A DNA stretch of 36,044 nucleotides from positions 1 to 36,044 of the IMG/VR virus record IMGVR_UViG_3300031227_000189; one strand, 5' to 3'. This stretch comes from a virus. Within the stretch, counting starts at the first letter, position 1; every line of letters starts with the position of its first letter. A program made the position numbers and the translations under genes. The notes under the pieces were generated by a model. The model was given only the letters and a program-made list of their open reading frames with translations. It was not told the origin of the DNA and made no database searches. Positions 1-36,042 of the stretch are shown here, piece after piece.

Positions 1-115
1 TCCAGATTATATGATAATTGATGTTGTATTTGCAGTGAGAACCTGTCCTCACAGTTGCTATCTTTACATCTAAATTGTACTTTGTTGGATTGAAATGTTT
101 GTATTCGTTTTTCAT
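1..115 (-). CDS. tnpA: TnpA transposase, N-terminal part (cut by window edge)
   Basis: The first 38 residues of an IS200/IS605-family HUH/Y1 transposase are visible, beginning MKNEYKHFNP at 115 and running off the left edge. It differs from the start of the complete copy at 35455-36012 at very few residues (for example T for K at residue 11 and Y for F at residue 30), while the DNA differs at many silent positions. It is therefore a related but diverged copy, not a terminal repeat of the same sequence. The catalytic HxH and tyrosine motifs lie outside the window, so integrity cannot be judged. The left-end hairpin precedes the start codon exactly as in the other copy. Confidence 0.85.
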   Translation of the reverse strand, partial: MKNEYKHFNPTKYNLDVKIATVRTGSHCKYNINYHIIW

Positions 116-263
116 AATTATCACCTACTACTAAGGGATAATTATTTTCTTTTGTAGGTTGCACGTTGAACGAACCACACATTAAACTTTTAGGTGTTTT
201 TACCGAACAGTTTAAGTTAAGGGGTTTGTGTGTGCTAACCTTCTTTTTTGTTTGATTATTCAT
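1..263 (-). CDS. Hypothetical gene running into the IS left end
   Basis: A reading frame starts at ATG 263, overlapping the end of the upstream gene, and stays open to the window edge. It crosses the IS left-end hairpin and then runs in a different frame from tnpA. The codons before the insertion (263 to about 146) give a short Lys/Ser-rich segment with two cysteines. I infer that a small viral gene was interrupted by the IS and now has an IS-derived C-terminus. No family is recognised, and the frame could be open by chance. Confidence 0.3.
   Translation of the reverse strand, partial: MNNQTKKKVSTHKPLNLNCSVKTPKSLMCGSFNVQPTKENNYPLVVGDNYEKRIQTFQSNKVQFRCKDSNCEDRFSLQIQHQLSYNL
114..145 (-). repeat. 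IS200/IS605 left-end hairpin, copy 1
   Basis: Perfect 9-bp inverted repeat, ATAATTATC at 114-122 and GATAATTAT at 137-145, with a 14-base loop. It sits immediately upstream of the tnpA start. The same arms and almost the same loop recur at 36011-36042. Subterminal hairpins are the recognition structures of TnpA in this family. Confidence 0.75.
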
Positions 264-444
264 CTTCTTGTTGATCTAAAATGTCTTCACTTTCTGTTAT
301 TGCTCCTTCAATTAAATGTCTTATATTATCATCTGGAATCATTGCCATTAATTGATTTATACAATCGACTAATATAGTTGTTGTAACATGATTTCCTAAT
401 GATTTGTCTTTCAACATTAAAATTTTAATTGTTTTTATATCCAT
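256..444 (-). CDS. Hypothetical protein, 62 aa
   Basis: Small acidic protein with no recognised family. The start is well supported: GAGGTAAAAA precedes the ATG, a strong Shine-Dalgarno-type site. It has a short hydrophobic patch (residues 20-35) followed by an acidic C-terminus ending QQEDE. It is the last complete gene of the leftward operon that begins near 3177, about 50 bases after the preceding gene. Confidence 0.6.
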   Translation of the reverse strand: MDIKTIKILMLKDKSLGNHVTTTILVDCINQLMAMIPDDNIRHLIEGAITESEDILDQQEDE

Positions 445-496
445 TTTTTACCTCGTTCTTGTTTTTACCATTTTCTTTCGTTTTTTTGGAAACTAC

Positions 497-916
497 CTAC
501 TTTAGTGGGTAGAGGGTTTCATTTTTGTCCTCTTTCTTTTTCATAGCAACCCAAACTCTTCGAGTAAGATCAACAACGTCACGCTGAGCTATCAGACCTG
601 CATCTCGCAAATTACCAAGAGCCAGTTCTACTATTTGCTGATCACGACTCCCCATTTGTTTTAATCGATTACTGTATTGGTTAGAATCGTTAACGAAGTT
701 TGCTATGTAACTTATAGCAGCGAGACTAGTGGAACAGATCTTTCCCATGCCAGCCCACTCTACGCAGTTTGTGCAGCTGCAGTTTATGTGAATGTCTACT
801 TCGTGTAGTTTTCCTACAGCGTTTTTTACTTGGAACAAATGTATTTTTTTTGTGCTTCCTAGTTCTTTTACTTCGCAGAACTCGCTGAGAGTTTTAACTT
901 CTTTAGAGATAATCAT
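497..916 (-). CDS. Hypothetical Cys-rich protein, SWIM-like motif
   Basis: 139 aa from ATG 916, which overlaps the upstream TGA stop (ATGA) and follows GTAGGTG. Residues near 45-65 hold CSCTNC, then a cysteine 10-12 residues later (GKICST) followed by a helix. That spacing recalls the SWIM zinc finger CxC...CxH, but the final histidine is replaced. The C-terminal half is predicted helical and ends in a lysine/glutamate-rich tail. A DNA- or protein-binding role is only inferred, and no family is certain. Confidence 0.6.
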   Translation of the reverse strand: MIISKEVKTLSEFCEVKELGSTKKIHLFQVKNAVGKLHEVDIHINCSCTNCVEWAGMGKICSTSLAAISYIANFVNDSNQYSNRLKQMGSRDQQIVELALGNLRDAGLIAQRDVVDLTRRVWVAMKKKEDKNETLYPLK

Positions 917-34144: not shown

Positions 34145-34543
34145 TTAATCCTCCAGTAAGTGTTTGTCTTTGTGAATGTTACCAACAATAGTTATATCCC
34201 AATCACCATGCAATTCTATAAATGTCATGTAACTGTCTTCAACTTCATCGCACGCAAATATGAAAGCAGCTGATTCAAATTTAACATAACCAACTTTTTG
34301 TATATCTACTTTATTGTAACGTGTTGAACATTTCAGAATATCTCCTTCGTAGATTTCTTTACCGTTCTTATCTAATAATCCTGTGAACTGCATAATTTCA
34401 AGTTCAGTAAAATCAGGAGTATTAACAGATACTACTAATTTTCCATAACTAAGAAATGAGTTTATTCCTTCTTCTTCAATAGATGTTTCATCATACATGG
34501 TTTCTGTTTGTTCATCCCATGCTCTAAATTTAATTTGTCTCAT
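34145..34543 (-). CDS. YopX family protein
   Basis: 132 aa. Matches YopX (PF09643 type): starts RQIKFRAWDEQTETMYD, then LEIMQFTGLLDKNGKEIYEGDILKC, and a terminal GNIHKDKHLLED. Found in many phages and prophages. The molecular role is unknown, and strand-rich modules suggest a small binding protein. It lies directly left of the transposon right end. Its start is only a few bases from the IS end, so it may have lost its own promoter. Confidence 0.85.
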   Translation of the reverse strand: MRQIKFRAWDEQTETMYDETSIEEEGINSFLSYGKLVVSVNTPDFTELEIMQFTGLLDKNGKEIYEGDILKCSTRYNKVDIQKVGYVKFESAAFIFACDEVEDSYMTFIELHGDWDITIVGNIHKDKHLLED

Positions 34544-34549
34544 ATTATT

Positions 34550-35467
34550 TTAGGCAGGATACCCAGTCACTTCAGTGCTGGGAGGAATGCCGTCCTCCTT
34601 TAAGTTGTTCTGCGAGAGGTCACATTGGTTAACCTCTGGTTTGTGTAGTTTATATTCTAACATCAAATGTGGAATCGGTAAAAACTGAACTAATCTCGTT
34701 TGTGATTTAAATTTATCTTTTAACTTCCTTAGTTGTTTTTTTCTATTAGCTAATAAACACCAAGGAGTTTTACAGGAAGAATCTGTAAATCTTGAATTAT
34801 TTTCTTCAAGAATCATAGCTTTATCGTAATTATGAGGTTCGTTTTTATGGAGTTCTTTGAAACCTTCTTCTTTCATAAATGGGCAAATATAACATCTTGA
34901 TTTTTCAGGAACTCTTAGACCAAGTGCCTTAATGAGTTCTTTACATCGTTCTCTTCCTATGTTGTATTGTAAAAGAGGGTAAACTGGAATATATGGAAGT
35001 CGTTTAAAATTATCCCTTCCTGTCTTTTTGTTTTTTTCTTTCCAATCAAGAAGTTTTTTTGCTCTTATTGGTTCATCAGCATCAAAACCAATATACATAA
35101 AACATAAATCATCAGGATAAGTTTTTTTAATATATTTCATGATTGGTGTAATTTTGAATTTATCTGTGCATTCTCTTCTTGATGCAGGAGGTATAATTTT
35201 TCTATCCATACAGAAACCATAAAGACTCCCTTTTCCTTCTGAAGTTTCCATTTGGGCAGTAACAATAGTAAATTTTATACCTTCTTTTTCAAGGTAAGGT
35301 TTTGCTTCGTTTTTAATCCATTTATATTCAGAATCCCAGTTTGTTTTAGTATCTGCATAAATACATTCATCAATAGGAATCTTTTTTAATCGTAATATTG
35401 TAAGCATAGCACCTGTATTTACTCCTGCACCAAATGAAACAATGTGGCGAATCTTTAAGCAGACCAC
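34550..35467 (-). CDS. PP-loop ATPase, PAPS reductase-like
   Basis: 305 aa. PP-loop SFGAGVNTGAML (about 11-22, the phage variant of SGGKDS), then ECIYADTKTNWDSEY, a cysteine in SRRECTDKFKI and a C-terminal metal-type site RCYICPFMKEEGFKEL. The family activates substrates by adenylation; phage members are linked to sulfur or base modification, but the substrate is unknown. GTG 35467 overlaps tnpA. The last 25 residues (DGIPPSTEVTGYPA) are encoded by the transposon right end and are not part of the normal family. Confidence 0.8.
   Translation of the reverse strand: MVCLKIRHIVSFGAGVNTGAMLTILRLKKIPIDECIYADTKTNWDSEYKWIKNEAKPYLEKEGIKFTIVTAQMETSEGKGSLYGFCMDRKIIPPASRRECTDKFKITPIMKYIKKTYPDDLCFMYIGFDADEPIRAKKLLDWKEKNKKTGRDNFKRLPYIPVYPLLQYNIGRERCKELIKALGLRVPEKSRCYICPFMKEEGFKELHKNEPHNYDKAMILEENNSRFTDSSCKTPWCLLANRKKQLRKLKDKFKSQTRLVQFLPIPHLMLEYKLHKPEVNQCDLSQNNLKEDGIPPSTEVTGYPA
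34562..34637 (-). repeat. Transposon right-end hairpins
   Basis: Three adjacent inverted repeats: CCCAG/CTGGG (34562-34582, with inner CACT/AGTG), GGAGGA/TCCTCC (34581-34586 with 34593-34598) and AGAGGT/ACCTCT (34615-34620 with 34632-34637). Clusters like this mark the right end, and in tnpB-bearing relatives the guide-RNA scaffold, of IS605 elements. The PP-loop gene reads through all of it and stops at its edge. Confidence 0.6.
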
Positions 35468-36012
35468 CTCTCAAGTTTTAACTGACTTGTAAAGTTCCCT
35501 ATCTTCTGATTAGGACTTCCAAAGACACTATACTCAAACACATCCTTACCTTCTTGCTCTTGAATATATCTCTTAACTGCTTCTTGTGAAACGTGACCTG
35601 CACTTCCACAATAGTAACCTTTAGCCCATAAGTTAGGAAACCGTTTTCCATAACTCCAGAGTAAATAAGGTAAGTGTTTGAAACATCTTCTTAGCTGAAT
35701 ACTTGTATTTCCTTTCAACTGTTTAACAATCTTAAAAGGAGTGTGCTTAGGCTTCGCACCAACAAATAAATGTATGTGGTCAGGCATTACTTCCACAGCT
35801 AACATATCCAAATCAAGGTCTTCACACTGTCCCTGAATAATATCTTTAAGCACAGATACCACCTTTCCAGTTAAGACTTTTCTCCGATACTTTGGAATCC
35901 AAATTATATGGTAATTTATATTGAACTTGCAATGACTTCCAGTTCTTACTGTTGCTATTTTTACATCTAAGTTGTACTTCTTTGGATTGAAGTGTTTGTA
36001 TTCGTTTTTCAT
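35455..36012 (-). CDS. tnpA: IS200/IS605 HUH/Y1 transposase
   Basis: 185 aa. Start ATG 36012 with GGTG upstream. N-terminal SHCKFNINYHIIWIPKYRRK, HUH motif MPDHIHLFVG (about 80-89) and catalytic Tyr in SQEAVKRYIQEQE (about 158) are all intact. It cuts and joins single-stranded DNA at the hairpin ends. The C-terminal 30 residues extend past the usual end of the family. It overlaps the PP-loop gene by 13 bases, so both come from one message. Confidence 0.92.
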   Translation of the reverse strand: MKNEYKHFNPKKYNLDVKIATVRTGSHCKFNINYHIIWIPKYRRKVLTGKVVSVLKDIIQGQCEDLDLDMLAVEVMPDHIHLFVGAKPKHTPFKIVKQLKGNTSIQLRRCFKHLPYLLWSYGKRFPNLWAKGYYCGSAGHVSQEAVKRYIQEQEGKDVFEYSVFGSPNQKIGNFTSQLKLERWSA

Positions 36013-36042
36013 AATTATCACCTACTACTAAGAGATAATTAT
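36011..36042 (-). repeat. IS200/IS605 left-end hairpin, copy 2
   Basis: ATAATTATC (36011-36019) and GATAATTAT (36034-36042) with a 14-base loop, overlapping the tnpA start codon. The arms are identical to those at 114-145, and the loop differs at only one base. Confidence 0.75.

Follow-up and report, generated by a model that had tools for sequence, protein, structure and literature searches.

Interest in IS200/IS605 transposons centres on TnpB and IscB, which are related to the CRISPR nucleases. Members such as IS605, IS608 and ISDra2 combine tnpA, with or without tnpB or iscB, with subterminal hairpins and a short target motif on the 5' side of the left end (LE). IS605 elements normally carry tnpB between tnpA and the right end (RE), and in IS200 a hairpin lies over the ribosome-binding site of tnpA. 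In integrons, the mobile units are cassettes of one gene each, with cargo that can be exchanged and recombination sites that fold as single strands. The palindrome-associated transposable elements (PATEs) of Haloquadratum are transposase-free, possess IS605-type palindromic ends and are presumed to be moved in trans; they are described as lacking the length to encode a transposase, and the one studied closely is described as non-coding (PMC3119063).

The window analysed here is the whole IMG/VR record IMGVR_UViG_3300031227_000189 (36,044 bp, designated 'linear'), which has the terminase, portal, head-protease and tape-measure matches of a tailed virus. It contains an element that shares the Y1/HUH TnpA and the subterminal RE hairpin of the IS200/IS605 family, together with a hairpin like that of IS200 at the tnpA ribosome-binding site; the LE hairpin and the target motif are seen in a second copy and in relatives. 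The element differs from the described family in the absence of tnpB, in the PP-loop gene that occupies this slot, replaced by many other genes in its relatives, and in the RE tip, which restores a start codon in viruses. From sequence comparison, we read it with a probability of roughly 0.8 as an IS200/IS605-type single-strand transposon with PP-loop cargo, located where a YopX-family gene has its start codon and belonging to a variable-cargo, tnpB-less branch in DPANN-type archaea and environmental viruses. A preliminary description of this DNA had named an IS200/IS605-like element with a PP-loop gene in the place of tnpB, which was right but understated the case; the branch also includes single-gene cassettes without tnpA. 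The literature searched, with preprints and most subscription journals outside its scope, contained no description of such cargo cassettes, only PATEs as the nearest case and ordinary IS605 elements. The novelty of the variable-cargo branch is accordingly provisional.

Architecture of the window element

The main copy of the element and the gene that flanks it comprise the following features.

36011-36042, minus strand: hairpin around the tnpA ribosome-binding site (RNA fold z -4.0)
35455-36012, minus strand: tnpA, intact Y1/HUH transposase of 185 aa (Y1_Tnp and transpos_IS200 profiles, translation)
34550-35467, minus strand: PP-loop (PAPS-reductase-like) cargo gene, 305 aa (PHROG 424, translation, conserved residues)
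34553-34591, minus strand: RE hairpin (sequence, covariation, pattern search)
34540-34543, minus strand: ATGA tip of the RE (position occupied by ATGA in 42 of 43 viral REs)
34145-34543, minus strand: YopX-family gene, flanking and outside the element (Pfam YopX, 1e-19)

The transposase matches Pfam Y1_Tnp (4e-36) and NCBIfam transpos_IS200 (1e-40), and its alignment with relatives reveals the PDHIH motif and the region of the conserved Tyr, in agreement with the intact HUH/Y1 tnpA reported previously. The hairpin at 36011-36042 had been mistaken for the left end. Its 3' arm holds the Shine-Dalgarno sequence of tnpA, and comparable hairpins of different sequence are found at the same place upstream of tnpA in L007, L048, L053 and L066. 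In the relatives, the true LE forms a hairpin of its own, about 45-410 nt upstream of tnpA, a position that falls past the contig end for the main copy, and hence its left boundary lies outside the window.

The PP-loop gene overlaps tnpA by exactly 13 bases, as the ORF coordinates confirm for an overlap noticed earlier, and starts with a GTG inside tnpA, where the usual place of an ATG reads TTA; its stop codon lies within the RE. The encoded protein matches PHROG 424, 'phosphoadenosine phosphosulfate reductase', at 3e-28, which upholds its PAPS-reductase-like identity, and a Pfam search of the protein returned no family at E 0.01. A profile search of the whole window record for TnpB (PF07282) gave no match and, with the PP-loop gene in the slot, agrees with the view that tnpB has been replaced.

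The RE hairpin consists of an outer stem (GGCA/TGCC), the internal strands TTCCTCCC and GGGTATCC, and an inner hairpin. Among 40 relatives, the REs share two nested helices around near-invariant internal strands, with 90.6% of helix cells paired as compared with 62.1% in shuffles, and a covariation score of 0.606 against 0.128 for shuffles and at most 0.125 for slid versions. The helices thus covary far above chance, and the right-end hairpin recognised in the preliminary description is real. This conservation supports the assignment of the RE as a single-strand fold of the type bound by TnpA. The hairpin also codes for the C-terminus of the PP-loop protein as proposed, although the tail amounts to 15 residues (EDGIPPSTEVTGYPA) and not 25.

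The ATG of the ATGA at 34543-34540 is the start codon of the downstream YopX-family gene. We fetched 80 YopX relatives from other viral contigs, and nearly all align from residue 1 or 2; therefore, the ATG at 34543 is the native YopX start. The predicted empty yopX site would consist of the upstream flank up to ATGA followed directly by GACAAATT, without the RE. Searches via YopX, a neighbour in G019 and a neighbour in G016 found no empty sites.

A second, truncated copy (1-522, minus strand) occupies the start of the contig, so that both contig ends lie inside copies of the transposon.

1-115, minus strand: second tnpA copy, of which the contig start leaves only the first 38 codons (alignment)
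256-444, minus strand: 62-aa ORF between LE and tnpA of the second copy (ORF list, alignment)
about 487-522, minus strand: LE of the second copy, ATGA followed by a hairpin with the loop CTAAAG (same sequence as the LE of L003)

The element copies at the two ends probably caused the assembly break. The two copies may form a tandem across a circular genome, although their match falls short of identity, the second tnpA copy being 86% identical to the main copy over 1-147. For the main copy, the subterminal LE hairpin is off the contig; the second copy and 30 relatives have it. Compared with the otherwise matching element of L003, the second copy contains an extra stretch (about 254-455) that holds the 62-aa ORF and has no counterpart in L003; this ORF suggests that genes may enter upstream of tnpA, too.

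A variable cargo slot in tnpA-bearing relatives

The closest relative of the window tnpA, in L003 (95% by tblastn, 93% over the alignment), belongs to an element with the order LE, tnpA, a 213-aa methylase-like gene and RE. The DNA of the two elements is 87.5% identical over tnpA and 85% over the RE, whereas the gene between them gives no match. In viruses and in MAGs of DPANN archaea, the slot contains DNA methyltransferases, MT-A70 among them, PP-loop enzymes, radical-SAM-like proteins and small ORFs, as the following loci illustrate.

L004: methylase-like protein
L034: protein with a radical-SAM-type cysteine motif
L035: N6/N4 methylase (6e-48)
L036: C5 methylase (2e-42)
L006 and L008: proteins of no known function
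L046 (Woesearchaeota MAG): methylase-like protein
G005 (L139/L140): a different PAPS-reductase-type protein (1e-37)

The strongest support for the earlier view that the PP-loop gene occupies the tnpB slot, bounded by tnpA on one side and the RE of the element on the other, comes from relatives in which almost the same tnpA and RE enclose other genes. Ten other tnpA-bearing virus records (G001-G010) gave no match to PF07282 either. The record G005, also designated 'linear', has ends overlapping by 127 bases and is a closed circle cut inside tnpA.

Cultured phages had no RE match, and their TnpA matches were all distant (below 60%). The LE query produced one weak LE-like match among them, adjoining a transposase accessory (tnpB-type) gene in Klebsiella phage FBKp34, which we set aside as an ordinary IS605 case.

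Two further arrangements were observed among the tnpA-bearing loci. In L055 (4552-6494, Woesearchaeota MAG), two genes lie between tnpA and the RE, one of which matches the BcrAD_BadFG ATPases (4e-37) and has its C-terminus coded by the RE. The product of the gene downstream of the L036 element, from 5388, has the N-terminus MKVLNLYV and resembles in this the C5 methylase carried as cargo in G011; a stack of methylase genes may be present there.

Single-gene cassettes without tnpA

Scanning viral contigs for the RE pattern identified 45 stretches, most of them real as judged by the outer stem and the ATGA tip; the matches L146, L178, L180 and L171, which have neither, were dropped as false. 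None of the 18 records with a cassette RE matched in a Y1 transposase profile search, in which five control genomes did match, and a control with the reversed pattern found nothing. All-against-all alignment uncovered an LE common to these stretches, just upstream of the cargo genes. This LE1 has the form ATGACATACTCCCA-hairpin-GGGTATCTTAA. A second LE class (L149, L152, L156, L170 and L186) follows TAA instead of ATGA, and its RE still ends in ATGA.

Many of the ORFs that end inside the viral REs are again cargo genes, for methylases of several classes, radical-SAM-like and IscB-like proteins, or small proteins. Like PATEs, these cassettes combine IS605-type palindromic ends with the lack of a transposase, but their cores carry an intact gene for a protein of 49 to 299 aa and not a short non-coding sequence. 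The likeness to integron cassettes, single-gene units with exchangeable cargo, is an analogy only, as we saw no integrase, attI or attC array, and the cassettes have IS605 hairpin ends at scattered start-codon sites.

In G011, a genome closed by a 70-base end overlap, two cassettes have different genes between LE and RE cores that are identical. Most telling are the methylase cassettes of G012a and G019, in different viruses, which are 68.7% identical over 232-848 and 1865-2457, respectively. With LE starts at 234 in G012a and 1867 in G019, and the right tip of the latter at 2455, the homology ends within about two bases of each tip, and the flanks are unrelated. This comparison of sites supports mobility of the elements, as far as it can be read from sequences.

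Several cargoes connect the cassettes with the tnpA-bearing elements. A radical-SAM-like cargo is common to tnpA-bearing L034 and cassette G013 (59% identity), and a methylase-like cargo to L046 and L147 (53% identity). L163, at its second RE, and L164 keep only a C-terminal piece of tnpA and look like intermediates between tnpA elements and cassettes. Cassettes were also found in genomes of the phylum to which L046 belongs (L287, L288 and L298), where RE matches number 17 in 14 of 371 genomes as against one for the reversed control.

In G011, one cassette protein (L190/L193 with L192) consists largely of KNKDKIAEYRR-like repeats and has no known function. The virus G012, which has two LE1 methylase cassettes, also has a solo RE-like hairpin at 65232-65258 (minus strand). 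In L151/L175, L166 and L185, IscB-like genes are associated with the same RE type ending in ATGA, and RNA-guided nuclease cargo hence shares the RE architecture.

Element ends at start codons

The LE follows ATGA at 30 of the 31 tnpA loci with a recognised LE, the second window copy included and L006 with ATGT being the exception, in a search whose pattern admitted only ATGA, ATGT or RTAA and could therefore miss other targets. On the other side, 42 of 43 distinct viral REs have ATGA 10-16 nt (mostly 13) after GGGTATCC, and the cellular RE tips read ATAA in seven of nine cases. Of the 40 sites scored, 31 have an ORF of at least 40 codons that opens at the RE ATG; for every ATGA on the same strand of these stretches, taken as background, the proportion is 36% (p about 1e-7). 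The viral REs of L004, L140, L164 and L177 open only short ORFs. In the left flanks of L003, G019 and G024, an upstream stop codon overlaps the target ATGA, and a Shine-Dalgarno sequence (CGGAGGTAAAAATGA) precedes it in the left flank of G013. The ORFs opened by the RE ATGs, together with the stops and the Shine-Dalgarno sequence on the left, therefore place the elements at gene junctions, where the RE gives the next gene its start codon.

All 11 LE1 cassettes without tnpA have a leader of 12-14 codons, typically MTYSHTLKGRVS, that begins at the target ATG, and the leader stop lies 1-8 nt before the cargo ATG in 10 of them. In L184, a short ORF with an ATG start lies ahead of the cargo, and the leader stop is 5 nt before this ORF. 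We slightly favour the view that leader, cargo and restored start together form a translational relay; the leader arrangement may in part be the inheritance of one LE.

The strongest competing explanation is that the placement at start codons does not reflect targeting at all. TnpA would insert after any ATGA, insertions that spare genes would survive, and the leader frame would be inherited rather than selected. ATGA indeed precedes the cellular LEs as well, whose RE tips are mostly ATAA, and an LE conserved by descent would bring its frame along. However, such indifference does not readily account for the ATGA at almost every viral RE tip, nor for L153 and L197, in which the LE sequence has changed and a different stop is used, yet the leader still ends 8 and 1 nt, respectively, before the cargo ATG. 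The tnpA-bearing locus L035, whose hairpin is that of L153, lacks this arrangement. We regard placement without targeting as a serious contender that falls a little short of an even chance.

Proposed mechanism and mobility

In the mechanism that we propose, TnpA, acting in cis for the window copy and in trans for the cassettes, would cut next to the ATGA that precedes the LE and, on the other side, at the ATGA that forms the RE tip. The element would be excised as a single-strand circle and then reinserted after another ATGA. Since viral operons have ATGA at start codons and where a stop overlaps a start, the left flank would keep the old start, and the RE would supply a new one in frame. In the cassettes, the old start would read the short leader, with its stop just before the cargo start, and the cargo stop inside the RE would fall shortly before the next start, completing the presumed relay. 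Exchange of cargo would most likely occur via recombination, or via misused ends, between co-oriented neighbouring copies.

The cassettes are probably moved in trans by TnpA. It is conceivable instead that cassettes and cargo elements are dead or domesticated remnants, their cargo being inherited viral genes flanked by fossil transposon ends. Consistent with immobility, tnpA is missing or truncated in many of them, and cassettes sit at the same place in several contigs of seemingly one virus (L164/L182/L187 and L163/L165). Fossil ends are nevertheless difficult to reconcile with the intact tnpA of the window, with LE and RE cores conserved through compensatory changes, and with the identical ends around different genes in G011 and the homologous cassettes at unrelated sites, which make this explanation unlikely.

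Less probable still is a plain tnpA element beside a resident viral PP-loop gene, the hairpin being a leftover RE of another element or chance: the missing LE of the main copy, the absence of a second PP-loop element copy from the window record and the viral contigs, and the cargo-free elements L062 and L063 (Thermoplasmata MAGs), with an RE only 42-48 nt after tnpA, would fit it, but in relatives tnpA and the same RE repeatedly enclose a gene, with no second RE seen directly after tnpA, G000-G007, G009 and G010 have one RE each in the RE pattern search, the PP-loop gene overlaps tnpA by 13 bases and stops within the RE, and homologous cassettes end exactly at LE and RE. A tnpA with its own RE directly behind it, which the preliminary description had named as evidence against cargo, therefore exists elsewhere, in L062 and L063, and does not undo the anatomy of the window.

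Returning to the cargo-bearing transposon as the preferred reading, we can formulate a broader proposal, to which we assign about even odds. DPANN archaea and their viruses would share a general single-strand gene-cassette system, in which single genes, chiefly for DNA-modification enzymes, are carried between IS200/IS605 hairpins, moved by TnpA in trans, inserted at ATGA start sites and expressed by translational relay. Such a system, if true, would offer viruses an integron-like gain of genes without breaking operons. The variable-cargo branch and the viral start-codon cassettes would help to explain how viruses of uncultured archaea gain methylases and related enzymes, and they provide a simple sequence rule for finding cargo, ATGA-LE ... 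RE-ATGA. The claim that transposon ends double as translation signals is open to direct test.

The hosts of the element branch are likely, though not proven, to be of the DPANN type. The best cellular relatives of tnpA are mostly in Woesearchaeota, Nanoarchaeota and Thermoplasmata MAGs, and it is from these and from the Woesearchaeota cassettes that we derive the host assignment.

The PP-loop cargo protein

Searches found no close PP-loop relatives in viral contigs and, by sequence, no relatives of solved structure at E 1; the AlphaFold single-sequence model has a mean pLDDT of 34. Assimilatory PAPS reductase CysH has a C-terminal catalytic ECGxH motif, which is absent from the translation of the PP-loop gene.

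The slot companions of this gene, namely methylases, a second PAPS-type protein and radical-SAM-like proteins, suggest that its product acts on DNA, RNA or nucleotides as a modifying enzyme, perhaps as a counter to host defence. As a tentative guess, the PP-loop cargo would shield viral DNA through a modification of nucleic acid or of a nucleotide, an end that the methylases so often carried as cargo would also serve.

The protein shares 24-31% identity with the phage PAPS-reductase-like PP-loop proteins of PHROG 424, and alignment of the homologues shows the common residues P93, C100, K105, P108, C192, C195 and the GFDADE segment. It differs from them in about 75 extra C-terminal residues, the last 15 of which come from the transposon end. 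The alignment with phage and plasmid homologues is limited to about residues 5-231, and that with distant homologues to about residues 9-231; the hairpin tail is therefore peculiar to the window copy.
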